Source of the DNA: Verpa conica
Lineage: Eukaryota; Ascomycota; Pezizomycetes; Pezizales; Morchellaceae
Length of the DNA: 64,000 nt
Direction of reading: 5' to 3'
Assembly: GCA_033030425.1 (NCBI GenBank)
Contig: JAUFSD010000008.1
Coordinates: 1,798,001-1,862,000 of the forward strand
Shown: positions 17,652 through 62,843 of the stretch, piece after piece
Layout of the letters: each line of letters begins with the position of its first letter
How positions within the stretch are numbered: position 1 is the stretch's first letter
Notes under the pieces: generated by a model
The model's input: only the letters and a program-made list of their open reading frames with translations
The model's database searches: none
What the model was told of the DNA's origin: nothing
Made by a program: the position numbers and the translations under genes

Positions 17652-19172
17652 TCAGCTAGAAAAAACACTTAATACGTCTAAAATATATCTCAACCGTATA
17701 TTGTTATTTTCCTCCTCTTCATCAATAACGAATTGCCCTCCAAAGCCGTCCTCAAGACAGGTGAGACAATTTATAACAAGCTCTGTCATCTTGTCTCCGG
17801 CAGTAGCAGGTAACTCTGTTCTCGCTATATCTACTAGAACTTTTTGGACATTCTTGGGAATTTTCACCATCGCTTGGGTATTTCCCATGAAATCCCGTTG
17901 GACAAGCCGAAGGCTGACGGCTCTGTCTTGGTAAAGTTGACTGATTTGGGTAGCACCATCGGTTTCATCTACAAAACTTGCCCAGAGAAGGATTTCCAGC
18001 ATACACACGCCGAGGCTATACATATCATGGCCCATGACGTATTCCGCGCTTGCTCTGTATCCTTGCCGTTGGGGGTGTTGGTAAATGCCATGTTGCCAAT
18101 CCTTTGAACCCACAAGCGTTGTAGCATGCCCAACTTCTCGGGACGACTCCCAGTTCGTCAGGAAGAGTGTGCCAAGAGGTAGAGATCTTATTGTTTGCGT
18201 ATCACTACGATCATCTTCGGGCGATAAGATAAGGAGGTTCTGGGGGCGGATATTCTTGTGGACGATCTCGATGTCATATGTGAACAGTACAGCCTTAGCT
18301 AACTGATGACAGAGATTTAATCGAGCGGTCAACGAAGGTGATCGCACTGCTGGGTTTCGGTAGAGTAGGAGATCGTGAAGGGTACTCGGAGAGCCACGGT
18401 CAGATGGGATAGCGAAAACTAACTCATGAGACCGTTGTGAAGGGACATGTCGATACCCGATAATCCTCGGGATCCCATGCGAAATCTCGGCTTTGTAAAG
18501 CTTTGACGCAAGCACAAGGGCTGCCTCGGCTGCCACCTTCTGTTCTTCAGAATCATATATCATGGGTTCCAGTATAAAAGTTCCTCGACCGGAAACATCC
18601 CTTGCATGATCGCATTTGGCGAGGAACCCTTCGCGAAGGAATATCTCGGAATGTGCAAGTGGAGTGCCCCGTTTTTCATCGTCTTCCTCACCGATAACCT
18701 TAAACTGGGAGGCCGATAGAAAAAGTCGAGATGGAACTGTCTTTTTATGACGCCATATACCGTTTAATGCGGTGTCCACATCCTGCCCAAGCTTCCGGAG
18801 ATCCTTAACCAGCTTTAGGATTTCCTTTTTTCCGCCGAGCCAAGCATATGTGATGGACCGCTTCTTATACTTCTCAAGTAAATTATCGGTTTTTACAAGC
18901 CGATCCTTGATGTCCGACAAACACCTGCCCAAGTAGGTCTTTAGACCGTCGTTGACATCTGGGTACTTTATGACGACCTTGGCGCTCTCGAGCTGGGCCG
19001 TTAGCTGGCTGCTGACGAGCTCAACCTCCATCGCTTTTATCTCCTCCAAAGATTTCGGCGCATCTTTGTAGTCATGGATCTTTTCGACGAGGTAATTGCA
19101 AGCTGTGATGAGAACGTCGATCAGTCCGGGGACCCCGATTGCCAGCCCAGCTACGCCAACAATAGCCTCCAT
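17652..19172 (-). CDS. HeLo-like domain + pseudokinase (MLKL-like architecture)
   Basis: An intronless frame of 506 residues. The N-terminus starts with a hydrophobic helix (VGVAGLAIGVPGLIDVLITA) and continues as an all-helical bundle to about residue 150, typical of fungal HeLo/HeLo-like N-terminal domains; in the HET-S family this domain permeabilises membranes. Residues about 180-480 follow a protein-kinase fold with late landmarks such as GHDMYSLGVCMLEILLW (subdomain IX), but the catalytic residues are gone. The HRDxKxxN loop reads HKNIRPQN (305-312), the DFG position reads TNWES (339-343), and the segment where the beta-3 lysine is expected reads ILEPMIY. It is thus a pseudokinase behind a HeLo-type bundle, the layout of animal and plant MLKL. 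It is divergently arranged with the kinase-ankyrin gene at 20756. Cell-death function is inference from the family. Confidence 0.8.
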   Translation of the reverse strand: MEAIVGVAGLAIGVPGLIDVLITACNYLVEKIHDYKDAPKSLEEIKAMEVELVSSQLTAQLESAKVVIKYPDVNDGLKTYLGRCLSDIKDRLVKTDNLLEKYKKRSITYAWLGGKKEILKLVKDLRKLGQDVDTALNGIWRHKKTVPSRLFLSASQFKVIGEEDDEKRGTPLAHSEIFLREGFLAKCDHARDVSGRGTFILEPMIYDSEEQKVAAEAALVLASKLYKAEISHGIPRIIGYRHVPSQRSHELVFAIPSDRGSPSTLHDLLLYRNPAVRSPSLTARLNLCHQLAKAVLFTYDIEIVHKNIRPQNLLILSPEDDRSDTQTIRSLPLGTLFLTNWESSREVGHATTLVGSKDWQHGIYQHPQRQGYRASAEYVMGHDMYSLGVCMLEILLWASFVDETDGATQISQLYQDRAVSLRLVQRDFMGNTQAMVKIPKNVQKVLVDIARTELPATAGDKMTELVINCLTCLEDGFGGQFVIDEEEENNNIRLRYILDVLSVFSS

Positions 19173-20755
19173 TCTGTTTTGAAATCTTAGTAAAGTAGGA
19201 GTACAAGTTGGCGGAAAGCTTGAGGGCCATTACTTCTATCGGCTTTGCCGGCTGCTGTTCTTGGGGTGTTTGGATCTCCGGGGGTTTGATCTATTGCACA
19301 CATAGTAAGCTACTAGACTGCAAGGCTATTATCGATATCGGAAACTTACGATATGGGTTTGCTAGAATATAAGTAATGGTGAAGGTAGGTAATTGTTAAC
19401 CTAACGATTATTGAACATAATAGTAGCAGAGGAGACAAAGCGACAGGAAGATCTCTGTACTCCTCTTATTTCAGGAGGGCTTGATTGCGGGATTGCCCAT
19501 ATTTATCCCTATGTCTGGCGCTAAATTCAGCCGCAACTGATTTAGTTATAGATATCGCTAGCGGCGCCAACAGCTTCCTAAAGTTACATGCGATGGGCTT
19601 CGGCCTGGCCTTTACCAGGGCTAAAGTCCCCTGACTCTTATGTCACATGTGAGGACCGTTAACCCTGGCCTGGATACGATTAATCTGGGGTGGTAATACT
19701 CTAACTTCCGTTTCAGGGATGCGGTGAGAAGGGGGGCACAAGATCTAAGAATGAATGTAATGCCGCATAAAACTTGCACTATACAAAGGTGTTGTACGGG
19801 ATGAAATTTGAACGATTGAGTACCAGCATAAGTTCTTTCGAATCGCAGGTAGCTCTCCTATACTGTTTTTTAGACATTGACTCACAGTGCCGGTTCAATG
19901 TGCCCCTCAATTTGACCCCGCTCAAGTTTTATGAGGGATTGGGTTAGGGTTTTGCCTTCAGAGGCCACAACTAAATGCTATTGGCTGTCTAGCAACTGCA
20001 ATTCGCCAGAAGCAGGGGATTGGTGCCGAGCGCTTACTAGCAGATAGAACAACCAATTGATAAGTGCACTTCGTTTGGGGTTCCCAGGTCAGCAGTTAAA
20101 TCTATCTCACTTCTCACAATTATGTTACGTTACTCGTATGTGGTAAAAAACCACTACTGTCCATAATTCTGCACCGGACAGCGTATCCTGCGAACAGTTC
20201 CCCTGCTAAAAATAAAGTCCTGGGCTAAAAAATAACGCTCCGGTTATATCAGAATTTCTTATCGTGAAACGGAAGCAGAAGCAGGGGACAATGACGTTTC
20301 TGGGATAGATTGGGTTCTGTGTACCATATGAAATGTGCAAAGCACGGGCCTCATCTCGGAGATGTCGAGTATGGCGATCTGGTCAACCCTGTTCAGGTTC
20401 GAACCATTTGTCCAGTAATTTAAATGGAGTCCTGGTGTGGTTCTCCGCATACCATATGCGCAATGTATCCTTTAAGAGGGTTGACTAGGTCACCCATGCC
20501 TTCCCGCAGGAATCCTTGGAGTTGGTGTGTTCGTGCAACTGACACCTGTTGGTTGCCTGACGTTAAAGACGCCTCTTGTTCGGAATCGGACACCGTAACA
20601 AGGCCATTCTTGGAAGTAACTTCGTTACTGGAATGCCTATATACATCGATTCGTAACCTCGCTCGAATCCAGAGACCCAAGTGCAGCGTCCGGTACTTCG
20701 GAGGCTAAAAATTCACACCAATAGGCTTATTTGGAGTAGTGGACGAGCGAAAAGA
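19173..20755. other. Spacer between divergent HeLo-pseudokinase and kinase-ankyrin genes
   Basis: This 1.6-kb region should hold both promoters. Two minus frames (20420-20680 and 20259-20450) look weakly protein-like but have no recognised motif and may be remnants. The sequence at 20385-20410 contains a tRNA B-box-like string, but no tRNA fold fits. Confidence 0.45.
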
Positions 20756-22934
20756 ATGGTGGGACTCTGACATCGATTCTAGAGTTTTGCTTTTGCTGAC
20801 CGATTTGTCTAGGTATTTAACAAGGTAATCGTCGGAGATAAAACCTTCGAGTTGGTTGGTTCGGCAGGACACGGAAGATTTGGCACTGCATTCTTGTATC
20901 AACATGAATCTGGGGAAAAACTCATCTGCAAATTGATCTCTCCAATTTCTGGAACCGACGATATAACGCACTTGATCAAGCGAGAAATCACAATACTCCA
21001 GACATTGATCCACCCAAACATTGTCCGATACATTTCGTCTGAATTTGGACCATCTCATGGACAACAGGCTCGTATTTGCATGGAGTACTGCGAAGGTGGC
21101 GATTTATCAAGGTTTTTAGCACTTTCAATTCTTTCCTTGTTATGCTCACCTAAAATCTGGGAATTAACGGAAGAAAAAGGGTAGATAAAGCTCTATTCAC
21201 TCCCGAATTTGTATGGAAAGTGTTTTTCCAGCTGGCTCTAGCCCTCGCCTACTGCCACCATGGGTTAAAAGTCATAGGGTCCACAGGTGGCGTTCAGAAA
21301 TTTGAGGTAGAGGAGCGTTGGACAACAATTCTTCATAGAGATATCAAACCAAGCAATGGTAGGGCCCTTTGTCACAATTGCTATATAATCTGGTGTTTTG
21401 TGTTAATTATAATAATTTCTCTCTAGTTCTGCTTTGGAATTCAGATTCTGAGGTTGTTAAACTGTGTGACTTTGGTATTGGAAAGGTGATCAGGTCGGAA
21501 ATGTCGGGAACTTATACTGGAACCTCCGCTTTTAGGCCACCCGTATGTTTACATATTCAGTATAAAGGAAAAGCTGAACTCTAACCCGATCTAGGAAATC
21601 ACTCGTGAGAAACCACACTGGACTACAAAATCCGATATATACTCTCTTGGGTGTATGTATTTCTTCCTTAAATTTCTATTGTCCTTTTAGGACTAAATTG
21701 TTTTTTGGTAAACTGACGATAATCCGTTGGAGCTGAAGGTACAATGCTATATCTGATATCTCGAACACTCCCGCCTAATAGTAGGCGACAGCGCCTTTCC
21801 GGGAACGCCTTGCTCAGAGCTATCCGGACTGAAGCCCCTAGCTTTGAGGATATATTTATGATTATCGAAAGATGTTTGGACACCACCATCGGTAGGAATG
21901 GTAGGGAGCGGCCTAGTAGTCTCACACTGCTGAAGTTGACTGGGCCCCACGCTTCTCAATCAGCTCCTGAAAATAGCCCATGTAGTGTTAAGGGATGGGA
22001 AAACTGCTTCAATTACCTTTTTGAATTAAGCGGAAAATTTAACCGCGAATCTTTTGATGAGGACCATGAAGATGAGCTGGTTCTAAGGCTATGCTTCCTC
22101 ATTAGAGATGGAGGGGACGAGCAACTGCTGGCCATGCGGGAACGACTACTGCGAAGCGCGCAAATGGGGACGATACTATCAAAGAGACTCCGAAGGGCGA
22201 TATCGATCTTAGACGCGGAAGCCAAGTTTGACGAGATAGTCCGGATAGCCGAAACTCTAACTTCTACAATGCCCCCAATTCAGAAAGATGGACTGGTGAA
22301 ACGACTATTATTGCTCATGAAGGATGGGGGAGATAAGGTGACAAAGGGGGAGGCAAAAGAAACACCATTGCATAGGAGCACGCGAAGGGGGGAAGTAGAT
22401 CAAATCTCTGTATTACTACATGCCGGGGCAAATATCAACGCAATAATGTTGAAAGGGAGGACGGCGCTACAACTCGCAGCTGATCTAGGGTTTCAGCATC
22501 TGGCAAAATTTTTATTGTCGAATGGAGCGGATATCAATGGCCGGGATGGCAATGGAAATACAGCGCTACACCTCGCCGCACAAAACGGACATGATAAGAT
22601 GATACCGCTCCTACTAGAGAAAGGAGCAGATATCAACGGGAAAAATGAAGATGGAGACACAGGGCTACATCTCGCGGCTCGGGATGGGCATGAGAAAGTA
22701 ATGTTGTGTCTATTAGAGCGGGAGGCAGCGGTTGGCGGTGGAAATAGAACGGGAGATACAGCCCTGCACTTAGCGGCGAGGAACGGGTACCGGGGGGCTG
22801 TGCAGATTCTGCTAGAGAGCGGAGCAGAAGTCAAACCGAGAAATAGTGTTGGGGATACCGCACGAGATATAGCAGCTAAGGAAGGGTACCAGGAGATAGC
22901 GGAGCTTTTAGATCGTTGGCTACTGCTTGGTTAA
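20756..22934 (+). CDS. NEK-like Ser/Thr protein kinase with C-terminal ankyrin repeats
   Basis: Exons 20813-21111, 21174-21358, 21427-21542, 21595-21652 and 21739-22934 join in frame. A putative first exon supplies only the ATG at 20756-20758, spliced at gtggga; this start is the weak point. The kinase domain is complete: GSAGHGRFG loop, LICKLIS lysine, REITIL glutamate, ILHRDIKPSN, LCDFGIGK, GTSAFRPPEI and SDIYSLGC, so it should be active. It resembles fungal NIMA-related kinases. A helical linker (about 22010-22340) with two IRDGGDE/MKDGGDK-type repeats leads to six ankyrin repeats (22360-22925; repeated TALHLAA, GAD-N). The total is about 618 residues. Kinase-ankyrin fusions recall animal RIPK4/ANKK1. 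The neighbouring divergent gene encodes a HeLo-like pseudokinase, suggesting a kinase-executor pair; that link is inference. Confidence 0.75.
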
Positions 22935-23837: not shown

Positions 23838-24456
23838 CAGTGCCGTGACAAATGTCTTCGGTCGCGCGCAACGCAACCACGGCCGCAACCCCACTACCCG
23901 CTTCGCGCAACCATGCCCCCCCCATACCTCCAAGCAAAGCCAGAAGGGTATAAGGCCTATCTACATGCAAGATAATGCTAGGGTTCATACAGCAGACTAC
24001 TCAATGGATTTTTTTGTGGATAATGGGGTGGGGTTGTTGGAGGACTGGCCTGTCTACTCTCTAGATCTCAACCCTATTGAGCATGTTTGGGCACACCTCA
24101 AGAAGCTCTACCACCTACACTATTCCAAGTTGGCTGACTATTCTAATAACCCTAATGTCTTAAAGCTACTAATGGAAGAAGCTCTTATTCACTGCTGGGA
24201 ATTGATACCTGACTCTCTTTTTGAAAGACTAGTTGATAGCATCCCTAGGAGGATTGAGGCTGTTATAAAGGCAAAGGGTTGGTACACAAGGTATTGGATA
24301 GTATGAATTTATTTATTAGATAGTATATATTACTCCTGTAAAAAACTACATGTCCATAGCAATAGTTGGTGGGGTACGAGGGGTACGTGGTCGGGCGAGC
24401 GAGGCCTCGGGGGCCCGTTGCCATGTGCGCGACCGAAGACATATGTGAGGGCTCTA
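23838..24456 (+). mobile_element. Tc1/mariner-type transposon remnant (deletion derivative)
   Basis: The frame at about 23947-24303 encodes the C-terminal half of a DDE transposase: YMQDNARVHTA (second D), LDLNPIEHVW (the E of D-34-E) and a C-terminal tail. The helix-turn-helix and first Asp are missing, so it cannot transpose itself. The left end begins cagtgccgtgac right after TA (23836-23837) and runs into atgtcttcggtcgcgcgca. The reverse complement of the right end (about 24430-24456) repeats atgtcttcggtcgcgcaca, so terminal inverted repeats of some 30 bp or more are present, with the outermost right bases degraded. The shared cagtgccgtgac start links it to the MITE at 25612. Confidence 0.8.
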
Positions 24457-36528: not shown

Positions 36529-39246
36529 ATGATTCTACCTTCGCTTACTTCCACTTACCGCTTCTCCACCTTATTAAATATACAGGATTTACGAACCCCA
36601 ATGACTAATCAGGGGCCACGGACGAAAGATATAGTGTTCAGGGTCACAGGACTTCCTCCTGAAGCTACAGTGGATGACTTGAGTACCGCACTCTCAGAGC
36701 TTTTGAGTGAGGACAGCGCACTTGACACCAAGCAGACTACCTTACTGCCATCCTGCTACGATGATGGAACTCAAACTGCTCTTGTCCAGTTCAAGCCGTA
36801 CTCACCGAAAGACTTAGATATTCTCCCAAATGGTGAGGGCTACGAAATCGAGTACAACAGCTATGATATTAGCATAGATAAGGACTTTTATGGCCTGACC
36901 CAACTATACCCTACAGCAGGGGGGATAAAAGCAGAGTAAGTTTTACCATGTACGTGTGTTTGGAAAGAGAGAGGATGAAATTTCGGGCGTTTGTTTGTAT
37001 TTTGCCTTACCCGGAGCACCGCTCGATAACCATATTTCGCAAGAGTCACTACTAGGCACTATATATTTCAATATATTTTCGTGACATCAGCTTACTCATG
37101 TTTTGATAGTATTGTGGCTGTATCCGGGCTTAATGGCCATGCGTATGGATCGTGGAGAGGGAGGGGGGGTCTGAGGAGGATGTGGCTTCGACATTTCCTT
37201 GGTCAAGACTTTCCTGATTGTAGGACCATGATATACGGATACAATTCGAAACTCGGTAGCAATGCGGTACACACAACCCTAGATTACACCATGAACTTTC
37301 TAGAGGGGTTGAGAAAGGCAAGAAGATTAGAACAGGTAGATTAGCCCTATTTTCCACTAGCACCCAATCTATGTCGTTAAAGAAACCTAACAACCCCTCT
37401 AGGAGAAGAAAAGACCGATAATATTCATTGGCCACAGTTTTGGGGGACTTATTATCGCTCAGGTACTGTATACAATCAGGGTTTGATCCACTAAAGCTGC
37501 CGAGGTCCAACTTGGTTATGAACCAGTAAGCATGTGGTTCAGTCCATTTCATTACCCAGTCGGAACCCGGCGTGCTACCAGGTACTAATTTGTATCATCT
37601 AGTCAATTGTGAAAGCTAGGGAGAGTGGTGATACAAGTTTTCTACATTCTCTATTTCAGAGCACCCGCGCCATAATATTCTTTGGTACCCCGCATCGCGG
37701 CCTTTTGGTTGATGATATACTTGCCATGCTTGGGGAGGGTTCGCCGAGAGAAGAGCTTGTTAGATCAATCGAAGGCAAATCGGAGAACCTAAAAACAGAA
37801 CTAGATAAGTTCATCCAGTGCTCCTCGAGCTTCAAGATAGTCAGCTTCCATGAGACCGGTCAAACCCGGAAACTAAAACAGGTTTGTACGCCAAGTTCAC
37901 CATCAGCAGAATTTACTTTTATTTGTATCATATTTTTATTTTATTCTGGTAGCTAAAAAAGTAATAAGGGCGAGGATGGTAGATGGTCAAGGAGCGGCGC
38001 CTACTTTAAATCTGTAGAAAGAAAGTCCTCAATACTAGAGCTACCAGGGGTAATCGAGGAAGCCCTGCCTGCCGAAGGGGACCATTCCGATATGGTCAAG
38101 TTCAACCACAGAGTCCGCTCAATGTCGTACACCAGTGTCGTCAGACACTTGAAAATTTTTACGTCGGATGCAATTCTAAATGGTAAGGATGAATCACTTG
38201 AACCCGCCTTTTGGGATTTTTGCGGCTAACATAGAGATGGTATTGTAATAGAAATATACGAGGAGCACAAAGACAATACAAACGCCCCCCAAGACAACAC
38301 TTTTGCTAATGGAGACAAATTAGCGGCACTTATACTACAATCCAAATCCGAAGAGGATTTGAGAATTGAGGAAAGAAGTGTAGAACTCCACACAGCAGTT
38401 TGTAGGGGGGATGAGTCAAGTGCCAAGATGCTGCTTAGCGGAGGTGTAGACATCAACAAACCCTGGGGAGGAAAAACACTGCTGCAGGTTGCAGCCGAGG
38501 CCGGGAATTATAGGATGGTGGACTTGCTTGTACGGAGAGGGGCAGATGTCGCCGCGGTGGATGACAAAGGGGACACGGCACTACACTTTTCAGCTCAGAA
38601 GGGTCATAAGAAGATCACAGAGGTGCTTTTAGCCCATGGAGCTAAAATCAATGCGAAGAATACCTATGGAAGTACGGCCTTACACTTTACTGTTCTCCGT
38701 AGGTATTCAAAGGTGACAGAGGTACTTTTGAAGCACAAGGCGAGCACCTCGGAGTCAGGTTCCGATTGGTACACGCCTTTACACCTTGCAGCAATAGTAG
38801 GGGATAATGAAGCTGTGGAGATGCTTCTGAAGAGTGGGGCAGACATTGAAGCGGTGGATAACAAAGGGGATACGGCACTACACCACGCAGCTCAAAACGG
38901 GCAAAGGAAAGTCACGGAAGTGCTTTTGAGACATGGGGCTAAAATAGATGCAAAGAATACTTATGGTAGCACGGCATTGTACTCCACGCCACTCCGTAGA
39001 TGCCCAAGGGTTACAGAGATCCTTTTGGAGAACGGAGCGAGTACCACGGAGTCAGGTTGTGATTGGTACACGCCATTGCATCTTGCAGCAATGGCAGGAG
39101 ATGAAGAGACGGTAGAGATGCTTTTAAAGGGCGGGACAAATGCTCAGATAACTGATAACCATGGGAAAACGGCACTGGACCTCGCACGTACAGCGGGGCA
39201 TACGAAGGTAGTGGAGGTCTTGACACACAGAACCAGACGGCGGTGA
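36529..39246 (+). CDS. Alpha/beta-hydrolase (PGAP1/DUF676-like) with ankyrin repeats
   Basis: Six exons: 36529-36935, 37110-37335, 37403-37462, 37603-37881, 37969-38182 and 38237-39246; 731 residues (Met at 36601 is an alternative start). Residues about 30-135 form an N-terminal module with VFRVTGLP, a helix, LLPSCYDDG, TALVQFKP and IDKDFYGLTQLYP. Next is a serine-hydrolase fold: IVAVSGLNGHAYGSW, TMIYGYNSK, FIGHSFGG (nucleophile Ser about 223), IIFFGTPHRG and DHSDMVKF with the probable catalytic His. This set is typical of the lipase-like effector domains fused to fungal STAND proteins, but no NB-ARC follows. After a short linker the C-terminal 295 residues are about eight ankyrin repeats, with an internal 99-residue duplication. 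Exons 2 and 3 match the sizes and phases of the paralogue at 52255. Probable cytosolic defence or self/non-self factor, by family. Confidence 0.8.
38557..39150 (+). repeat. Tandem duplication of a three-ankyrin module (2 x 297 bp)
   Basis: Residues starting VDDKGDTALHFSAQKGH (base 38557) recur 297 bases later as VDNKGDTALHHAAQNGQ (38854). The unit is 99 residues, exactly three 33-residue ankyrin repeats, each ending with a copy of DWYTPLHLAA. Differences cluster at a limited set of positions such as HF/HH, ITEV/VTEV and LHFTVL/LYSTPL. Confidence 0.8.
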
Positions 39247-43460: not shown

Positions 43461-46400
43461 ATGAGTTCAAAAACAGATCAACCATATGGGGTTAAGGTTC
43501 TAGTTGAGGGAACTGATCCTCTCATTGAGTATGTATTCTCTTGTCATCATACTTATAGGTATACTTATATATGTACACAGCTTAGTCGCAGTACATGGGC
43601 TTGACGGCCATCGAGAGCGTACCTGGACGGCAAAAAACGAAGCTTCATGGCTCCGTGATTACCTCCCAACGATAGTCCCCAATGCCCGTATCCTGGTCTA
43701 TGGTTACGATGGCAGGACACGTAGCTCTGAGCCATTGAGTTGTCAAAAGTTACACGATCATGCAATTAGTCTAGTTACAGATCTCACCCTCCATAGGAAA
43801 GTAACAAAGGTAGGTCCCCATGATGGTCGTAGTGAGGGTCAGTAATACTTACAGCCTATATTGATCTAGACTAGCAAGCGACCAATTATCTTTATTGCGC
43901 ATAGTATAGGAGGCATCATAGTCAAAGATGTAACATCACCTCACCTCTAGGTTCGCAAGATACCATATAGAGTAGTATAGATAGGACAATGGGTGGTGGG
44001 GATGTTGAATTGCGAGATCGTCCATCACCCGATTATCTTACTACGGAATAGTGGTTTCTTTTTACGCTCTGTGCAAATATTCTAACGGGAATTTCAGGCA
44101 CTCATCCACTCGAGTTCCGCCAACAAGAGTAATTTGGAACATCACAACGCGATCAAGACCTCCACCTATGGCATACTCTTTTTTGGCACACCGCACCAAG
44201 GATCGGATATTCTCACATTGACGCGAAGCCTCATGGATACTGCTTCGCGTAAGAAAGCAAATCATGATATTTTTAAGAATTTAGAGAAAGGGTCCGAGTT
44301 GCTCCAGAAGCAGATTGGGCAGTATAATCATATTAGCAGTCATTTTGTCACAAAGTGTTTTTATGAGGCGTATAAGTCATCCTCTGGTAGGGGTACTGTA
44401 AGTTTTACTGCCCCAAGTATAATAACTACGGTTCAGGGGAGCTAATACCCTCAAGACCGTAGCACCAGATTCTGCAATAGTCCCTGGTGCTACTAATGTC
44501 GAAGTCTTTCCGATTTATAGCAACCATGAAGACATGGTAAAGTACGAAGTAGTGGATAATGATGATTTCAGGAGAGTCTCTTCATGTCTTCAGTTGATGG
44601 CAGAGGATGCCCCAGAGAAGGTTTCAGACAACTGGCAGAAATGGGAGAGAGTCAAAGGTAACGAGAGCACCATCCACCCATAATCTCAAATACCTAAGGC
44701 CCACAATCTAAGGGGGATGTCTAAATGTTAACTCAATTTTGATTAAGCTGCCGAGAGTAATGGCATGCAGATCACATTCGATATTCCTTTTGAGCCAGAA
44801 TATCCAAAGAATGAACATTTTACTGGTAGGCAAGGCCTATTAGATAAACTACACCAAACTATCGAGGAGGCACAACCCACTTTAGTCACTATAGTCCTTT
44901 ACGGCACTGGAGGTGTTGGGAAAACCCAAATAGCTTCTGAGTACACTCATACTCACCAGAAGGAGTATCAATCGATATTCTGGATCAACGCAGCCACCAA
45001 AGAGTCGATCGAGCTTGGGTACAGGACAGCAGCTCAACGATTAGTAAGGGAGCATGCAAAGATTGCATATGGCACAGATCCCAACTACTCTTTGATAGCA
45101 AAGAGCCTTGATATGATTGGTGCAGTGGATGAGAACGGTTCTATTTCTCCACAGGACGATCATACTGAATGCATAATCAGGGGGGTGAAGATGTGGCTGG
45201 CTAGAAAAGGGAACGAGAATTGGCTTCTTGTAATTGACAACGCCGACGACCTTGAAGATATGGAACTTGAAACATTTATACCAACAGCCGCATATGGTAC
45301 AATAATCATAACTAGCAGACGCACCAACTGGGCCTCCTTCACGACTGTGTTAGAGGTGGAGGTCATGCAGGAACAGGAGGGGAAGCTTTTACTTTTAAAG
45401 AGCGCAGGATTGGAAGGTGAGTTGGTTCGCAATACTTTACTACTTATGGGCTCCATATAGCCAATAGGTTCCACGATATCTACAATATATATCACTATTG
45501 CTAACGGGCTACAGAGGATCCTATTGCGGAAGACGTTGTCACAACGCTCGGTTCCTTACCTCTTGCTATTGTCCAGGCAGGGGCCTACGTTTTAGTTCAA
45601 CAAATGTCGCTTAAACGATACCTAGAAATCTACGATGAATGCTTCAACACTATATTCGGGGAGCCGCCATCAAAGGCAAATTGGCACTACGGGGATCGCA
45701 CAGTCAAAACAACATGGGAGATATCATATAAAGCAATAGCAGATAAGAACCAACAGGCCGCTGAAATACTATCACTATGTTCATTTATATCTAATGAGAA
45801 TATCTACGATGATATGTTACGCCGTGGCAAGAAGTTGAGAAAAGATGGTACGTTCAAAATCTCGATTATTTAGGGGGTGTGGGCATATACTGATGGACCT
45901 CGTAAATAGATATTACACTAGATACTGCATTAGGACTATTATTTTCATATTCATTAGCGCATCGTAAAGGGCTGAGCGACAGCTTCTACATTCATCCTTT
46001 AGTTCATTTGTGGGCCCAAAAGCGCCTTGTGGAGCCTGAGTGTGTACAGAAGGCGGAGGAAGCTGTAGCGATGATTGCCAACATAATTTATCGGCAAGGA
46101 TATTGGACCACTAAGGATGTGGAAGGCGAAACTAGGATCTTACCACATATACTTACCACGGGGAAAAACTGTATGAAATATTTGAAGGTTAGATCGATCG
46201 GCCCGGAATTGGCTGCTATGATCAGCAAAATAGGCCGTGTATTTCATGAGAGAGGACAGCTAGAGGGGGCAGAGAGGCTGCAGCTGCAAGTACTGCAAGC
46301 GAACCAGAGTACCCTAGGCAAGGAGCACCCAGACACTCTCACGTCAATGAACAATCTAGCATCAACCTACCGGAATCAAGGGCGGCACAAGGAGGCGGAG

Positions 46401-49283
46401 GTGTTGGAACTGCAAGTGCTAGAGAGGAGGCAGAGTACCCTAGGCAAGGAGCACCCAGACACTCTCACGTCAATGAACAATCTAGCATCAACCTACCGGA
46501 ATCAAGGGCGGCACAAGGAGGCGGAGGTGTTGGAACTGCAAGTGCTGGAGGGGATGCAGAGTACCCTAGGCAAGGAGCACCCAGACACTCTCACGTCAAT
46601 GGGCAATCTAGCATCAACCTACCGGAATCAAGGGCGGCACAAGGAGGCGGAGGTGTTGGAACTGCAAGTGCTGGAGGGGATGCAGAGTACCCTAGGCAAG
46701 GAGCACCCAGACACCCTCACGTCAATGAACAATCTAGCATCAACCTACTGGAATCAAGGGCGGCACAAGGAGGCGGAGGTGTTGGAACTGCAAGTGCTGG
46801 AGGGGAGGCAGAGTACCCTAGGCAAGGAGCACCCAGGCACTCTCGCGTCAATGGGCAATCTAGCATCAATCTACCAGAATCAAGGGCGGCACAAGGAGGC
46901 GGAGGTGTTGGAACTGCAAGTGCTGGAGGGGATGCAGAGTACCCTAGGCAAGGAGCACCCAGACACTCTCACGTCAATGAACAATCTAGCATCAACCTAC
47001 CGGAATCAAGGGCGGCACAAGGAGGCGGAGGTGTTGGAACTGCAAGTGCTGGAGGGGATGCAGAGTACCCTAGGCAAGGAGCACCCAGACACTCTCACGT
47101 CAATGGGCAATCTAGCATCAACCTACCGGAATCAAGGGCGGCACAAGGAGGCGGAGGTGTTGGAACTGCAAGTGCTGGAGGGGATGCAGAGTACCCTAGG
47201 CAAGGAGCACCCAGGCACTCTCACGTCAATGAACAATCTAGCATCAACCTACTGGAATCAAGGGCGGCACAAGGAGGCGGAGGTGTTGCAACTGCAAGTG
47301 CTGGAGGGGAGGCAGCGTACCCTAGGCAAGGAGCACCCAGGCACTCTCACGTCAATGGGCAATCTAGCATCAACCTACCGGAATCAAGGGCGGCACAAGG
47401 AGGCGGAGGTGTTGGAACTGCAAGTGCTGGAGGGGATGCAGAGTACCCTAGGCAAGGAGCACCCAGACACCCTCATAGCCATGCACAATCTACAGGCCAT
47501 AACTCGTTCAAGTAACAACGAAAGCATAGAGCACATAGCAAGTGAAGTATGTAGAATGATGGAGATGACTGGTGATCCGAAGTTAGCAGAGTTCCAGATG
47601 GCACTCGAGTACGAAAGACAAGGGCGGTTAACTGAGGCAATGGAGTTGTTACAACAGCTAGCGGAAGATTTGACTAGGCAACGAACCACATCTGCAGAGA
47701 CTGCAGAGGAAATGATGTTCCAGAGGGCTGTCTCAATGAGCCTCCAGCAAGATACCCCGAGTGAATGCAGTGACAGAGAGGGGAATGCGCCAGACGAATT
47801 CGATCCAGACGCCTTCACAACTATCGATGAATTGGCTACAGCCCTAGGCCAAAACCATCCGGAAACTCTCAAAGCTACTCAAGATCTAGCGGCAACCTAC
47901 TGGGAGCAAGGACGGCTGAAGGAAGTAGCTGTACTCGAACTGCGACTAGTTGATTCGATGAAGAGTACCCTAGGTGAAGATCATCCAGGCACTCTCAAAG
48001 CAATATCCAATCTAGTAATGACCTATATCAAGCAAGGGTGGCTAAGAAAAGCGGAAGAGCTGCAGCTACAAGTTGTGGAAAAGATGCAGCGTATCCAAGG
48101 TATAACGCACCCAGACACTCTCCAAGCCAACAAACTCCTTGGCGCGGTCTACTCGAAGCAAGGACGGTGGAAAGAGGCAAAGGAGATAATAGAGCGCATG
48201 AAGGATGCAGATGATGAGATGCTACAGCAAGCTATCAAGATGAGCCTCATTTCGGAGGGTGCTGGTGGAGGTAGCAGCGAAGGAGGGGAGGGGAAATTAG
48301 GAAATAAAAGTGGAGAGACCTTGAAGATCATGGCCAATCAAGCAGCTACCTACTGGGACCTAGGGCAGTGGAGAGAAGCAGGGGGCCTGGAGCTAAAAGT
48401 GATGCGTTCGAGGGATCTGATCCTAGGAAATGAACACCCAAGCACTTTGCTGGCTAAGACCAATCTAGCAGCGACTTATCAAGAACAAGGACGATGGGAA
48501 GAAGCGGAGGCGCTGGAGATAGAGGTAATGGAGGCGAGGAAGGAGAAACTAGGGACCGGACATCAAGACACCCTCATTGCTATTGCAAATCTAGCGGGGA
48601 CCTATTCACATCGAGGAAAGTGGAAAGAGGCGGAGGAGTTGAACCTACACGTAGTGCAGGTAAGGAGGCAGCGCTTAGGCAAGGACCATCCAAGCACTTT
48701 GTCAGCTATGGCAAGTCTAGCAACAAACCATTGGCATCTAGAGGAGCTGGAGAACGCGGAAAAATTAGAGCTGAAAGTGCTGGAGGCAAGGCGCAGAATC
48801 TTAGGAAAGGAGCACCCGGACACACTTACGGCTACCGGAAACCTAGCAGCGACCTATGCGAGCCAAGATCGATACGAAGATGCAGAAGAACTGCAGAAAG
48901 AGGTACTCGAAGTGCTTATGAGGACCCGAGGAAACAATCATTTCGAAACAGTATCTGCTTTAGAGTTGGTCCAAGTATACTATGATGGGAAGATAAGAAA
49001 GCAGAGCAGCGAACACGTACCAGAGGAAGCAGGGCTGGGATTCTTTGAGGAAATCGGAGCTAGAATGAAAGCTTCTGTTCTCATCTCCTGTCTTTTCTTT
49101 TTGTCCTTCTTCATTTCTTTCATTTCCTTTTCCTGTTTATTATTTTCAAATCTCGTCATGTATTTTCTTTTCTTTTTACCATTACGGATTTACGACAGCG
49201 AAGCTATCATACAGAGGTTTAGGGTGTTCATAGATCGAGTTGCTGATTTAACTGGGAGGTTTGAAGATGTACGGGTGAGATGA
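43461..49283 (+). CDS. STAND/NLR-type receptor: hydrolase - NB-ARC - TPR
   Basis: Eight exons (43461-43528, 43581-43809, 43879-43929, 44098-44397, 44456-44657, 44748-45416, 45515-45847, 45922-49283) give 1737 residues in one intact frame. The N-terminal hydrolase has LVAVHGLDGH, ILVYGYDG, FIAHSIGG (Ser about 108), ILFFGTPHQG and NHEDMVKY. The NB-ARC module has FTGRQ, Walker A GTGGVGKT (from 336), Walker B WLLVIDNADD (from 442), TIIITSRR, GSLPLA and an MHD-like HPLVHLWAQ. From about residue 710 kinesin-light-chain-type TPRs follow: nine nearly identical 42-residue units (46347-47480), then about eight diverged ones. Two UIM-like helices interrupt the TPRs, and a very hydrophobic stretch lies near residues 1668-1695. 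By family this is a cytosolic immune/incompatibility receptor: repeats sense, NB-ARC switches, hydrolase executes. Confidence 0.85.
46347..47480 (+). repeat. Nine-copy, nearly identical 126-bp TPR array
   Basis: Nine consecutive units of exactly 126 bp (42 residues), consensus M(N/G)NLASTY(R/W/Q)NQGRHKEAE then VLELQVLE(R/G)(R/M)Q and STLGKEHP(D/G)TLTS. Variation is confined mainly to unit positions 2, 9, 26-27 and 38, and N/G at position 2 roughly alternates. Nucleotide identity between units is far above that of the flanking TPRs, indicating recent expansion or gene conversion. Confidence 0.9.
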
Positions 49284-52254: not shown

Positions 52255-55200
52255 GTGAAGCCCTCCAAGAATGTCTTCCGAGTTCGGGGCCTTCCCCTTA
52301 CAGCTACCACCAGCGACCTGAAAAGATCACTTTGCAATGAGGATGAGGGAATAAGAATCAGAGCAACAACTGCTCCTTCTTGCTATGATAATCAAAGAAA
52401 GACCGCTCTTATACAGTTCGAACCTAGCCCCCCGCCCTGCTTGAATGATGTTTCTGCCGGTACCTCTAAGTTCTATCAGATGGAAATTGAAGTTGGTGAT
52501 TCATTCTTTGACATAACTATCGATAAGGATTTCTACGGCCTTACGCAGCTGTACCCCACACCTGAAAACTCGGAGATCACAGCAGAGTAAGATATCCAAA
52601 AGTCTACACTAGTGACTTATCGCAAGAACTAATTTATTGATTAGTATCGTAGCGGTCACAGGACTTGCTGGTCATGCATTCGGATCATGGCGAGGAAAGG
52701 GTTCGCTGGGAAGGATGTGGCTCCGGGACTTTCTCCCCATTGATCTTCCGAATTGTAGAACCATGACATATGGTTATGATTCGAAGCTCCATAGTGCTGG
52801 AATTCATGAGATTCTAGACTATAATCGTGCTTTTCTGGAGGAATTGAAGAAAGCAAGGGCGTCGAACGAAGTAAGTTGTAGAGATTACACTTCCGTTCTT
52901 AGAATTTCCATACAAACACCACTATTTACCTAATAAGAAAAGTGAGGCACACTGAAGGTATCTTTTTAACGGCTATGTACTTGCAGCTCCTCTATTTGTT
53001 TCTCATTATAACTTCAAGCCGCATATTTAAAGTAGAAAGACTAACGGATGTTGACACTAGGAAAGAGTAAGACCAATAATATTCATTGGCCACAGCTTTG
53101 GAGGGATCATTATTGCTCAGGTAAGCCCTAACAGTTTGCTATCTCTTTTCCTATGCCGGAGGAGTTTTTTTGGGCACTTAGCACATCAACGCTTGCGTAC
53201 ACCTCGGCCCCTTTGATGATATTGAGGGCCGAGGTGATGTAGGATATTCTGTATGAGCTGGTTAATAACACTCCCGTAGCGCTATACATGTTTGAAATAG
53301 GTACTAACATGATACTGAAGTCCTTGGTTAGAAGCAAAGAGTGCGATGAGAATGATGATCCCGCTATACATGCAATATACGAGGCAACCTACGCTGTGAT
53401 CTTCTTTGGCACCCCACACCGTGGACTTGTAGTGGACGATATCCTTGGCATGCTGGACCCAAAAGTTGATGCGGAAAGAGTCAAGCTTATCAATTCGATC
53501 AACAAAAACTCCGACAAACTCCGTCCGGAACTAGAGAGGTTTGTTAATCTTGCAATGCGACTAAAAATCGTGACTTTTTACGAAAGACTTCAGAGCAAGA
53601 GGCCGGTAATGGTATGAAATAAATTATCCGCCTATTATCTATATAAACTCACGATATTTTAGGGAGAGGACGGCTACGCTAGGATCGGGGAATACGTGAC
53701 CTCAGTCTATTCGGACTCGGCGTTGCTGAATCTTGGTGCGGCAGTTGAGCGGAAAATACCCGTTGACGCCGACCACACACAAATCGTGAAGTTTGACAGC
53801 CGAGACGATGAGGCGTACTGGAGCACCCGCTGCTATCTGCAAGAGTTTGAAAAAGAGGCCCCAGAGTATTTCCTTAGGAAATTTTGTAAGTATACTCAAA
53901 TCCAGTATTATGGATTTATGGCTAACCCAAGTATAGCAGGAATAAATAGAATTCCTAGCCCGATCCCTCCCTGGGGTACAGACTTTACACGACCAGCCAT
54001 GACACCGCCACATTTTGACACGACCACTGCGTATGATGCGATAGTCCGTAGAAAATTAGGTGATCTAAAGCGGCTATGCAACGCAAATTTGTTGAACCCA
54101 AGCAACGTTAATTTAAGGCAGGCTGGTGGTACTACGCTGCTCCACATGGCAGCCGAAGCCGGAGAAGAAAGTAAAGAGATGATGACGATGCTCCTCGGAA
54201 AAGGGGCAGATGTAACAGCGAAAGATCACAGTCAAAGGACAGCATTGGACTTGGCAGCTCTTGGTGGACATGAAGATCTGGTTCAGCTGCTGCTCGAGAG
54301 AGATGCAGATATCACAGCAAGCGACGAAAAAGGGTGGACTGTACTGCATGGGACAGCATTCAAGGGACACACGAGTGTAGTGAGAACGCTGCTAGAGCGT
54401 GGTGCAAAGATCTCCTCCACCACAAATGATGGATGCACGGTATTGCACGTAGCGGTTGATGGAGGACACGAGGACACAGTAAAGCTGCTTCTGAGTAAGG
54501 GAGCAGATGTCACGGCAAAAACCTCGGCGGGTGCCACAGCCCTATACTTGGCAGCCGTGAGAGGACGAGGGGACATAGTCGAAGTACTTCTAAAACATGG
54601 TGCTAACGTCACCACTAAAACTGGTGCAGGGTGGACAGTACTGCATGGGGCAGCAAACAAGGGGCACATGAGTGTTGTGAGAGCTCTGCTACAAAATGGT
54701 GCGGAGATTGATGAGAAAGCCGAGGACGGGTCTACTGCTCTCTACCTAGCAACTCTCAATGGGCACAATGATATAGCCAAGCTACTACGGGAATGTAGCC
54801 CTAATACTGTATCGAGAGGCTTGATAGTGACAAACGACGTAGGGAAACTTCGGCAAGCAAGCACACACGCCCCCACCTCTCCCGGAATTGCTTCAGTTTG
54901 CTGGGGTGGGGTACGTATGCGTATTTACTGGCAAGACGACCTTGGTAGAGTTCGTGACACACTGTGGAATGGAACATGGACTGGTGGAACTGAGAGAAAC
55001 ATCATTACTATGGCCAAAAAATCCACACCTTTAGCCGCGGTCCAATGGAACAATGGCACGCAGGTCAGTAAACCTTGAATACTTCACTGTAGACATAGTT
55101 TTACTAATATAGGCTAGATACGTGTGTACTATTTGGATAACAACAATATTATCCAAGAGTATTGCTGGGAAGGTTCAGGTTGGTCCCTGGGATCCTTGGG

Positions 55201-59516: not shown

Positions 59517-62500
59517 TTGTTGACATCCTCCTTCCCCTCTATTTTCTCAATTTTTGAAATTCAACACCAAAAACTTGCGTGGCAACCGTTTTTCCACACC
59601 AAACTCACAAAAATCCTAGGCTTCAAAATGCCAAGCCTTGACCCCTCCCTCTCTGAAATCTATGACAACCTACAGACTGGTCTCATTGACCACGAAATAG
59701 GCATGCCAGGCTCCTCTCTCATCTCTACTACCGTCGCCAACGCTATGAATGACGACAACACTTCCCCCATGGAAAAGCTTCTCCTCACCCTTCTCTGTTC
59801 CACCTTTAAGGTCGCGGCTCAGGCCAAACATGCCGCCCTCGAACTCTCACATCAACTCGATTCCATCACGGCCGTAGTCGATGACATTCAAACAAAGACT
59901 CGATACGCCTCCAACCACCCTCCCACCAGTGTTTACGACCACTTCGAGAGGCTCGAAGCCATAGTTAAAAACATTAAAAATTCAACCTCTTCCCCTCCTG
60001 CAACCTTTCCCCACCAAAGAACACAATCTACCTCCCCCGCCGGCCCCTCCTACCAGAGTTCTCCCCCTGCCAAATCCCCCCTCAAGTCGGTCACAGTCAC
60101 TGAAAAGATGTCCTATGTTGACGCTGCCAAGTCGGCCGCCAACACTACCCCAAAAAAGGCCACCAACCCTCGCCCCAAGCAGCAAAAAGTCACGGAGGAT
60201 AAGCCCCAGACCTTACCTACTGCTCAGCGAAGGTTCTTTGCAGTCAGACAGACCCCCTCGCCCCTCAAAGATTCCGACTCCCTCGTCCAACGTCTTCCAA
60301 CTCTTCTAGGGCAGTTCCTCGCCAAAGGTGGACAAGTCGCCCCCGTCACCTCCCTCACAGTCTCCATTAACCAACAAGGAGCTGTCTCGGTCACCGCCCC
60401 CCCAACGGTCCCAGCCTCTACGTACGCCCCCTTCTTTGAAGGGCTCACCGCGATTCTCAACCAAACGGTTAATGAGCCTTCGAACCCGTTCCAGCTGTTC
60501 AAGCAAGCCCCTACCACCTGTGACGTCGCTGTCAGAGGCATCCCACTAAACGAGTTCCCCGATCTCGCCCATCTTAAAAAAGCCTTCCCTGAAGCGGTGA
60601 AACTCGCAACAGGGATCACTCCTCTCGACACACGTTTCCTCACCGCGGACGACACCGCCCGAAACGTCCAGAAGTTCTCCACAGTTGTCATCACCGTCAC
60701 TGCTGAGGAAGCAGCCATCATCGGCACCACCATTAGACTCTTTTCGCGCCCCCACCACTGCTCTGTCATGTGGTCAGCCTCCAAAGCCACCCTCTGCTGC
60801 AACTGCTACAAGTTCGGCCACCCAACAAAAGGGTGCAAACAAAAAGAACCCACCTGTCCCATCTGCTCCCTAGGCCACCCTAGGGACAAACACCAGTGCG
60901 CTGTTACTACGTGCCCTGGCCACGTCTGTCCAAAACCCAACTGCTGCGTCGCCACCCCCTCCAAGTGCGTTAACTGTGGTGGTAACCACACGGCAAACTT
61001 CTCGAAATGCCCTCACCGCATTTCCATCATCAACAAACTCAGAGACGGACCTACCCAGGAGGCCCAAACCTCTTCAGACGCCACCGAGGAAGTGGCAATG
61101 AACGACACCATTTAAATGTTTAGTGCGACCACTAAACACAACTCCTCACTTAACATCATTCAACACAACTGCGCCGGGAGCAACAATGTGTTTCTTTCTC
61201 TATTCTCAAATCCAGTAATTCACTCGTCACAGGTCATAGCTGTGCAAGAACCCCCTTTATTTAACCGTTCTCCTTTAGTCGCACCTAACTTCGCTCTTTT
61301 TAAACCCACACCCACACTTCAAACAGACAAGGTGTCGGTGTGCTTTTATGTTAATCTTTCTTTTTTGGATAAGAACTCCGTTACCCAAACCCCCTCGCAC
61401 CGAGGAGATATTATTTTTATTACACTACATTTTGCAACCTCAAGTCACTCTTTTTTATCCTTAACACTTGCCAATGTGTACAACAGACAGGTGTCCGATT
61501 CTGTTAGATCTGTCCCTCCTTACATGGCCTTTCAGGCCTCATCTGTCCCTACCATTGTTGTTGGTGACTTTAATGTTCACTCCCCTGCTGTGGATCCCCT
61601 GCGAAAGCTCTCTACAACGGAACTCAACCTTTCCACTCCCTATTTTAGGCTGGCCAATCAACTTGGCTTCTCTCTCATTAACACCCCTGGGAAATACACC
61701 AGAATTTCCCCTGACCCGAGAAAGCGACATAGTGTTATTGACTTTACCTGGGCAAATCAGTCCGCAACCCAGCTAATCTCAAAGTGGCTTATTCCACCAA
61801 TTTCCTCAGGCTCAGACCACAGGGTCATACTCTGTCAGTTGGTCCCCCCGGACTCTGATTTCACTCCCTACAACACTCCCAATTGGTCCCTCGTTAACTG
61901 GGACCTTCTTACTCCCCATTTAAGCGAGCTCCAGCTCCCCCCTGACTCCTCCGACGTAGATAAGTGGTTTGACGAGTCCTTTAATCAACTTCACAACACA
62001 CTCCTTTTACACACCCCCACAAAGAAAGTTTCATCATGGTCAAAACCCTGGTGGAGCCCTAATCTATCCCAATTAAGGTCCATTTACCACAGCGTTCACA
62101 AGTCCTACCGCAAAGGACTCTCCCCTCCATTTGAGCTTAAAGCGGTCAAAAACGCCTACTTTAACGCTATTAAGAAGGCCAAACGTGACCATTGGAACAC
62201 GTTTGTGTCCAACGCCTCCCCTTCCGATATGTGGCGGCTTAAGAAAATGGCCACCAGATCCGAGGACCGGATCCCTTCCATTCCCAACTCCCCTACTCCC
62301 CAAATTCTAAATGAAAATTTAGTGAATGCATTCTTTCCCCCAAGACCAGACACTGGATCTCCTCTCCCATTACGGCATCATAACGTTCCCGTTATTACAC
62401 CTGAAGAAATTCAGCTCGTTCTTTCCAAAACCTCCAATCTTTCGGCACCAGGGCCCGATTCCATTCCTTACTCAGTATGGAAAGGTGTCCACAGGATTAA

Positions 62501-62790
62501 TCCCACAGTCATTCTCAGAATTCTTACCCCTCTTTTGAAAAGCGGTTATCACCCACTCTCCCTAAAAAAGGCAAATGGTGTAGTCCTAGCCAAACCAGGC
62601 AAAGACGACTACTCAGCCACCTCTTCCTACCGAATAATCGTACTTCTCCAAACCCTTTCAAAAGTTTTAGAGAAAGTCGTCACACTCAGACTGACAAAAA
62701 TAGCGAAAGCCACTGGCCTAGTTCATCCACACCAGTGCGGCTCTGTCGCAGGCCTCTCCACCTCAGACGCCACCTTTCACGGATTGAGCA
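59517..62790 (+). mobile_element. LINE (non-LTR) retrotransposon, 3' portion missing
   Basis: An ORF1 with three zinc knuckles is followed by an ORF2 with EN and the start of RT. The 5' part is well preserved and both frames are open, so the insertion is young. Sequence similarity to RT ends abruptly near 62785-62795, where unrelated sequence begins. The true 5' end lies somewhere in 59372-59627; no target duplication could be identified. Confidence 0.75.
59628..61115 (+). CDS. LINE ORF1 (Gag-like, CCHC zinc knuckles)
   Basis: 495 residues from the first ATG of the frame. The N-terminal half has a helical segment (about residues 40-125) and a Ser/Pro/Thr/Lys-rich linker; the middle shows an RRM-like region (CDVAVRGIPLNEF, then FSTVVITVTAEEA). 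The C-terminal part carries three zinc knuckles: C-x2-C-x4-H-x4-C (CCNCYKFGHPTKGC), CPICSLGHPRDKHQC and CVNCGGNHTANFSKC. The protein should coat the element RNA. The stop codon TAA is immediately followed by the ORF2 ATG in the same frame. Confidence 0.8.
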   Translation: MPSLDPSLSEIYDNLQTGLIDHEIGMPGSSLISTTVANAMNDDNTSPMEKLLLTLLCSTFKVAAQAKHAALELSHQLDSITAVVDDIQTKTRYASNHPPTSVYDHFERLEAIVKNIKNSTSSPPATFPHQRTQSTSPAGPSYQSSPPAKSPLKSVTVTEKMSYVDAAKSAANTTPKKATNPRPKQQKVTEDKPQTLPTAQRRFFAVRQTPSPLKDSDSLVQRLPTLLGQFLAKGGQVAPVTSLTVSINQQGAVSVTAPPTVPASTYAPFFEGLTAILNQTVNEPSNPFQLFKQAPTTCDVAVRGIPLNEFPDLAHLKKAFPEAVKLATGITPLDTRFLTADDTARNVQKFSTVVITVTAEEAAIIGTTIRLFSRPHHCSVMWSASKATLCCNCYKFGHPTKGCKQKEPTCPICSLGHPRDKHQCAVTTCPGHVCPKPNCCVATPSKCVNCGGNHTANFSKCPHRISIINKLRDGPTQEAQTSSDATEEVAMNDTI

Positions 62791-62843
62791 GGGGCGCCAG
62801 GGCTAGTCTCGTTGTGACTCATGCAAGGAGGAAGGCAGGGTAA
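61116..62843 (+). pseudogene. LINE ORF2: endonuclease and truncated reverse transcriptase
   Basis: The frame begins at the ATG abutting the ORF1 stop. Residues about 10-240 are an apurinic-type endonuclease with QHNCAG, AVQEPP, VVGDFNVH, IDFTWAN and SGSDHRVI. The RT begins near residue 430 with APGPDSIPYSVWK, VVLAKPGKDD, SSYRIIVLLQTLSKVLE and GSVAGLSTSDA, then stops matching after about residue 555. The palm motifs (first catalytic Asp and YADD-type box), thumb and 3' end are absent; the last 20 residues come from adjoining sequence. It cannot reverse-transcribe. Confidence 0.75.

Follow-up and report, generated by a model that had tools for sequence, protein, structure and literature searches.

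A divergent kinase gene beside an MLKL-like pseudokinase gene in Verpa conica, and the recurrence of such pairs in its genome

MLKL is the model for kinase-triggered bundle release, and the best-characterised fungal bundle executioners are fired by amyloid templating from NLRs, according to a 2025 review (PMC12881547). Effectors of NLRs, including kinase domains inside NLRs, are treated in three further papers (PMC9815663, PMC12258605, PMC10197012). Here we describe two divergent neighbouring genes in a stretch of 64,000 nucleotides from Verpa conica (contig JAUFSD010000008.1, positions 1,798,001 to 1,862,000; hereafter the window), one encoding a predicted helical bundle of HeLo-like or four-helix (4HB) type followed by a pseudokinase, which we call HPK, and the other an active kinase with ankyrin repeats. 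Genes of the HPK family have kinase neighbours far above background in this genome, and we found no description of HeLo-pseudokinase/kinase gene pairs in the titles and abstract openings of open-licence PubMed Central literature, preprints being outside the scope.

The likeness to MLKL and RIPK3 lies in a helical bundle with a pseudokinase, a phosphorylatable activation loop and a separate active kinase; the DFG place of MLKL is GFE, and the HPK family mostly has Gly and Phe, and often Glu, there. Unlike MLKL and RIPK3, the HPK and kinase genes are linked, and the kinases are NEK-like or LRRK2/IRE1-like and not RIPK. No RHIM motif was noticed by eye in the pair, for which no dedicated search was made. 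A two-helix brace between bundle and pseudokinase is a feature of the MLKL family, and the model of the focal HPK has no room for one, since a helix at 107-145 is followed by a strand at 157-159; several family members have longer inter-domain linkers in the alignment. With the HeLo and HELL executioners HET-S and HELLP the family shares an N-terminal bundle whose first helix is hydrophobic, but it has a pseudokinase instead of a C-terminal amyloid motif and a kinase instead of an NLR, and the focal protein has no match to the Pfam HeLo domain. The plant MLKL family and the CC-R/RPW8 domains differ in lineage and from the HPK in its pairing with a linked kinase. Fungal HELL-kinase/pseudokinase proteins come up in a review, the available part of which mentions no linked kinase genes, co-divergence or conserved loop Ser/Thr. 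DUF7580, a Pfam domain of unknown function, matches part of the HPK family but not the focal protein.

The features of the focal pair are, in window coordinates:

17652..19172, minus strand: HPK gene (HeLo-like/4HB-pseudokinase), 506 amino acids in an uninterrupted single frame
18738..19172, minus strand: N-terminal helical bundle of HPK, residues 1-145, from the AlphaFold model
17655..18704, minus strand: pseudokinase fold of HPK, residues 157-506, with Lys, HRD Asp and DFG Asp all substituted
18120..18122, minus strand: codon of Thr351 in the pseudo-activation loop, a phosphosite predicted from the family alignment
19173..20812, no strand: intergenic stretch of 1.6 kb between the divergent genes
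20813..21111, plus strand: kinase-ankyrin exon with the N-lobe and beta-3 Lys
21180..21358, plus strand: kinase-ankyrin exon with HRD
21427..21542, plus strand: kinase-ankyrin exon with DFG
21595..21652, plus strand: kinase-ankyrin exon with SDIYSLG
21739..22934, plus strand: last kinase-ankyrin exon, completing the kinase domain and continuing through a linker into six ankyrin repeats
22365..22931, plus strand: ankyrin-repeat region, in which six repeats were counted by eye and Pfam marks five Ank stretches

Fourteen HPK loci came to light in the 45.8-Mb genome, the queries being the focal HPK and three paralogous ones: C8 (focal), C9, C13, C16, C18, C19 (at 115k, 120k, 133k, 352k and 1250k), C21, C23 (233k and 1126k) and C25. 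About 10 kb around each non-focal HPK was scanned with kinase and HPK profiles, and at 12 of the 14 loci there is a separate kinase gene no more than 3.4 kb away. From frame to frame the distance is 1.6 kb at the focal locus, 558 and 615 bp at the two C23 loci, 76 bp at C16, 307 bp at C25, 721 bp at C9, 3,335 bp at C21, and 3, 3,038, 1,261 and 2,892 bp at C19:120k, 133k, 352k and 1250k; at C13 it is 2,203 bp if measured from the main frame, or about 1.1 kb if taken from a frame upstream that resembles its bundle. The nearest kinase to C19:115k is 5,170 bp off, and C18 has none in its three adjoining stretches (L031, L013, L032). When eight further DUF7580 loci (L023-L030) were scanned likewise, none showed a kinase (12/14 vs 0/8, one-sided Fisher 1.4e-4). 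One of these comparison loci, at C6 (L029:4022-5458), is itself a weak HPK relative at 62 bits, which has HGN in place of HRD and lacks a neighbouring kinase in the 9.9 kb scanned; when it is recounted as an HPK the figures become 12/15 and 0/7 (one-sided Fisher 7e-4). The background chance of a kinase within 3.5 kb is about 3-8% per locus with 162-370 kinase exons in the genome and about 12% with 600, where 162 is the number scored in our genome kinase scan and 370 that of its candidates, neither being a proven total. The chance of at least 12 of 14 is then 2e-16, 3e-12 or 8e-10 for 162, 370 or 600 exons. Because the HPK loci are paralogous and non-independent, these figures make the case look stronger than it is. 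Clustering in NLR regions was considered as a cause and rejected, as by eye one kinase (C4:66-70k) lies within 5 kb of the 18 NB-ARC matches; this comparison is indicative only, since the kinase scan scored 118 of 370 candidates and the listed rows were used. At L015:2823-3979 (C19:120723-121879), 3 bp from its kinase, the HPK frames have no bundle and a proline-rich start, and are probably truncated.

For one kinase family the pairing is one-to-one. A genome search with the partner kinase at C23:235k gave eight places at E<=4e-15, every one of them beside an HPK, with the following match at E 3.5e-6. The pair of C21 is tandem, the seven others are divergent, and all eight kinases retain the HxD motif and the aspartate of DF(G/E). 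The eight pairs are strongly diverged from one another, and they have co-diverged: similarities among the kinases mirror those among the HPKs, the true pairing giving the highest correlation (r 0.68) of all 40,320 assignments, as calculated from local alignment scores of single frames, not trees, with the HPKs of C13, C9 and C19:1250k entered as pieces. Duplication and divergence of whole pairs is the simplest reading. The nearest solved kinases to this family are LRRK2, IRE1, SOBIR1 and ULK (among the best 60 of 73); the alignment of the partner kinases has seven of the eight. A relative of these kinases in Uncinocarpus reesii (P0278) is fused to ankyrin repeats.

The HPK family has lost its catalytic residues family-wide yet has retained one loop Ser/Thr. 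Our alignment has 78 rows, made up of the focal HPK, 70 of the 120 listed homologues, hand-picked for near-full length, and seven of the 13 paralogous loci; the columns of the catalytic residues were picked out by eye. The beta-3 lysine column has Glu or Asp in 73 of the 78 rows. The column of the HRD aspartate never has Asp and has Asn in 70 rows, and that of the DFG aspartate has Gly in 66 and Asp in two; across the DFG place there is Gly in 66/78, Phe in 60/78 and Glu in 34/78. In the loop between this place and the invariant Tyr364-x-x-Pro367, the column of T351 has Ser or Thr in 77 of 78 rows, and the remaining columns of 343-363 have it in no more than 27%. Of 12 more HPK frames in the genome, 10 yielded a loop, in a register set by eye, and each of these has at least one Ser/Thr.

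The initial annotation had described the focal HPK as a helical bundle joined to a kinase fold with all three catalytic motifs lost, in the layout of MLKL, and this is borne out. The HRD place reads HKNIRPQN, the DFG place TNWES and the beta-3 place ILEPMIY, these being the positions taken as the catalytic columns of the family, and Pfam Pkinase matches only below its cut-off (27.7 bits vs 31.7). The AlphaFold2 model, made with the 78 alignment rows, has a mean predicted local distance difference test score (pLDDT) of 86 and places bundle helices at 14-33, 40-67, 75-104 and 107-145, with the kinase fold starting near residue 157. In a profile search MLKL (4btf) ranks first of 177,635 with E 4.1e-14 over profile positions 8-408, and is the best full-length match. 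The rows listed from a full-length fold search are all kinases without MLKL among them, by which MLKL is not excluded; a search with the bundle found a compatible fold, HET-S HeLo structures being absent among the rows listed but likewise not excluded, and the bundle by itself is not diagnostic. Because MLKL is the best full-length profile match, the bundle fold is compatible and a phosphorylatable loop residue is conserved, the MLKL-like architecture is supported. The HeLo label needs a correction: Pfam HeLo (PF14479) does not match the focal HPK at E<=0.1 and matches two of the 78 family rows, with a best E of 0.0014. At the same threshold DUF7580 (PF24476) matches 26 of the rows, and not the focal protein. 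The N-terminal stretch of the focal HPK is hydrophobic (best 19-residue Kyte-Doolittle mean 2.27, starting at residue 4), and N-terminal hydrophobicity is modest in several HPKs of the genome. In viral and prokaryotic contigs there were pattern matches for relatives, none of them confirmed.

The model of the kinase-ankyrin gene consists of five joinable exons (20813-22934), and a 5' exon outside it may lie in the 1.6-kb intergenic stretch. As first proposed, the kinase is NEK-like with intact motifs: it retains the beta-3 Lys (LICKLIS), HRDIKPSN, DFG and PPE, and its nearest solved kinase is NEK2 (E 7e-26), followed by NEK1 and MEK1/2 among the best 60 of 1,026 matches, where RIPK is absent. 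Kinase and C-terminal ankyrin repeats together give the architecture of RIPK4/ANKK1, in layout only. A RIPK identity of this kinase was rejected, as it is NEK-like by sequence and did not come out as a RIPK-type domain; the eight-pair kinases are closest to other families as well. A BLAST comparison took in the focal kinase, four neighbour kinases from C19 and five from the eight-pair family (with C25, C19:1250k and C9 left out), ten in all. They form three groups, with about 79-300 bits within and no more than 65 between them, and the focal kinase is in a separate group from the partner kinases compared. The C19 group, CAMK-like by eye, is part of an expanded family, for which there are 108 exon matches, a good number of them lying in frames of 500-1500 amino acids. 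One of its members (C19:127-130k; L015:9225-9824 with L016:3-2231) has many ankyrin repeats, so that there is a second locus where a kinase-ankyrin gene and an HPK stand 3 kb apart, and the large kinase expansion in this morel is partly one of kinase-ankyrin genes. In Rhizina undulata the kinase-ankyrin homologue (P0122, RUND412_004785) has a start that by eye resembles the end of an NLR TPR_10/12 repeat, and a second match (P0124) is a kinase joined to TPRs; both hint that NLR-like receptors may have given rise to kinases of the focal type. Directly downstream of the gene, at 23845-24306 on the plus strand, is a DDE_3 transposase-domain match, probably a transposon remnant.

Outside this genome the focal HPK is 78% identical to LAJ45_03725 of Morchella importuna. 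The top homologues of the pair, P0001 (HPK, 79%) and P0121 (70%, covering the last-exon part of the kinase-ankyrin protein only), come from the same source and are both on contigs of 14,577 bases, and judging from the equal contig sizes, linkage of the two genes in a second morel is very likely. It is the one match in a comparison of 119 HPK contigs with 24 of 120 focal-kinase rows and 58 of 120 partner-kinase rows.

These results strengthen the analogy with a death switch, which has gone from one adjacent pair to a recurrent pairing. We propose that HPK is a fungal MLKL-like protein fired by the divergent active kinase as a cell-death switch, a reading whose chances we put slightly short of even. 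The catalytically dead kinase domain would hold the HeLo/4HB-type bundle, the ankyrin repeats of the active kinase may receive a signal, and the switched-on kinase would phosphorylate the conserved loop Ser/Thr (T351). The pseudokinase would then change shape and release the bundle, whose hydrophobic N-terminal helix would insert into the membrane and kill the hyphal cell, for instance during defence or when non-self is recognised. We infer partner phosphorylation, bundle release, membrane damage and death from MLKL, on which the mechanism is modelled, and that the focal kinase is the partner of the focal HPK is likewise what we infer. A wider and more tentative proposal is a multi-locus kinase-to-pseudokinase death system in morels, and perhaps other Pezizomycetes, in which at least eight co-diverged pairs of kinase and MLKL-like executioner would be fired through one conserved loop Ser/Thr, unrelated kinases (NEK-ankyrin and CAMK-like-ankyrin) would have been recruited at further loci, and the whole would be a third-kingdom counterpart of RIPK3-MLKL.

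Several points weigh against the death switch. The paralogy of the loci and the HPK relative among the comparison loci make the linkage less striking than the figures suggest, and adjacency at C19 is weaker evidence since the kinases there belong to the expanded family. The initial annotation had asked for adjacency above expectation in Pezizomycotina and in relatives; the former is seen in the one genome examined, and the latter is very likely in the second morel but not seen in Rhizina, where the homologues (RUND412_007992 and RUND412_004785, distant tags on contigs of 19,423 and 34,109 bases) are unlinked as far as seen, and close relatives keep most neighbours anyway. It may be that only the eight-pair family is a true module and that the focal kinase-ankyrin gene stands beside an HPK by chance, which we find unlikely though worth taking seriously, and which is compatible with the other readings. 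The separate group of the focal kinase, the conserved gene order of related morels, the unlinked Rhizina homologues and the abundance of kinase and kinase-ankyrin genes in the genome, with 108 matches for one kinase family alone, all fit it, but the background chance per locus is low even with 600 exons, and three kinase groups adjoin HPKs.

The HPK could also be a scaffold, allosteric activator or decoy for the linked kinase, its bundle being only a device for oligomerisation or membrane anchoring. STRAD/LKB1 and ZED1 are models for such a pseudokinase, pairs of dead and active kinases are commonly regulatory, and the undiagnostic bundle and the modest N-terminal hydrophobicity of several HPKs speak for it as well; with MLKL as the best full-length profile match we nevertheless regard it as rather improbable. 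Tight, mostly divergent linkage and co-divergence would fit a poison and its antidote equally well, as would the strong divergence of the eight pairs, so that the HPK might be toxic by default and be silenced by the linked kinase, through phosphorylation or binding; the locus would then be a selfish one or one of incompatibility, at which losing the pair is punished. Activation by phosphorylation is rather what the loop Ser/Thr and the layout resembling MLKL would favour, and we consider this explanation the least probable.

In animal necroptosis a kinase fires a helix bundle caged by a pseudokinase, and if the death-switch reading is true, a kinase-gated fungal version would mean a phospho-switch that is either older than the animal pathway or convergent with it. 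It would also be a tractable model in which specificity could be studied on many natural kinase-effector pairs, and would make the HPK loci candidates for vegetative-incompatibility genes of morels, still unmapped. In M. importuna, according to PMC8940278, there is no het-s homologue, polymorphism in het homologues is low, and the known ones seemingly do not explain incompatibility; two linked genes were mapped, for a CorA-like and a domain-less protein, neither described there as HPK-like, and further loci remain.

Elsewhere in the window, all on the plus strand, an NB-ARC domain and, after it, a long array of TPR_10/TPR_12 repeats (44747-49280) mark a gene of NLR type some 22 kb away from the pair. 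There are ankyrin-repeat open reading frames at 38230-39243 and at 53663-55075, the latter also matching a fungal fucose-specific lectin domain, and a domain of the endonuclease-reverse transcriptase type at 61116-62840 probably belongs to a retroelement like the long interspersed nuclear elements (LINEs).
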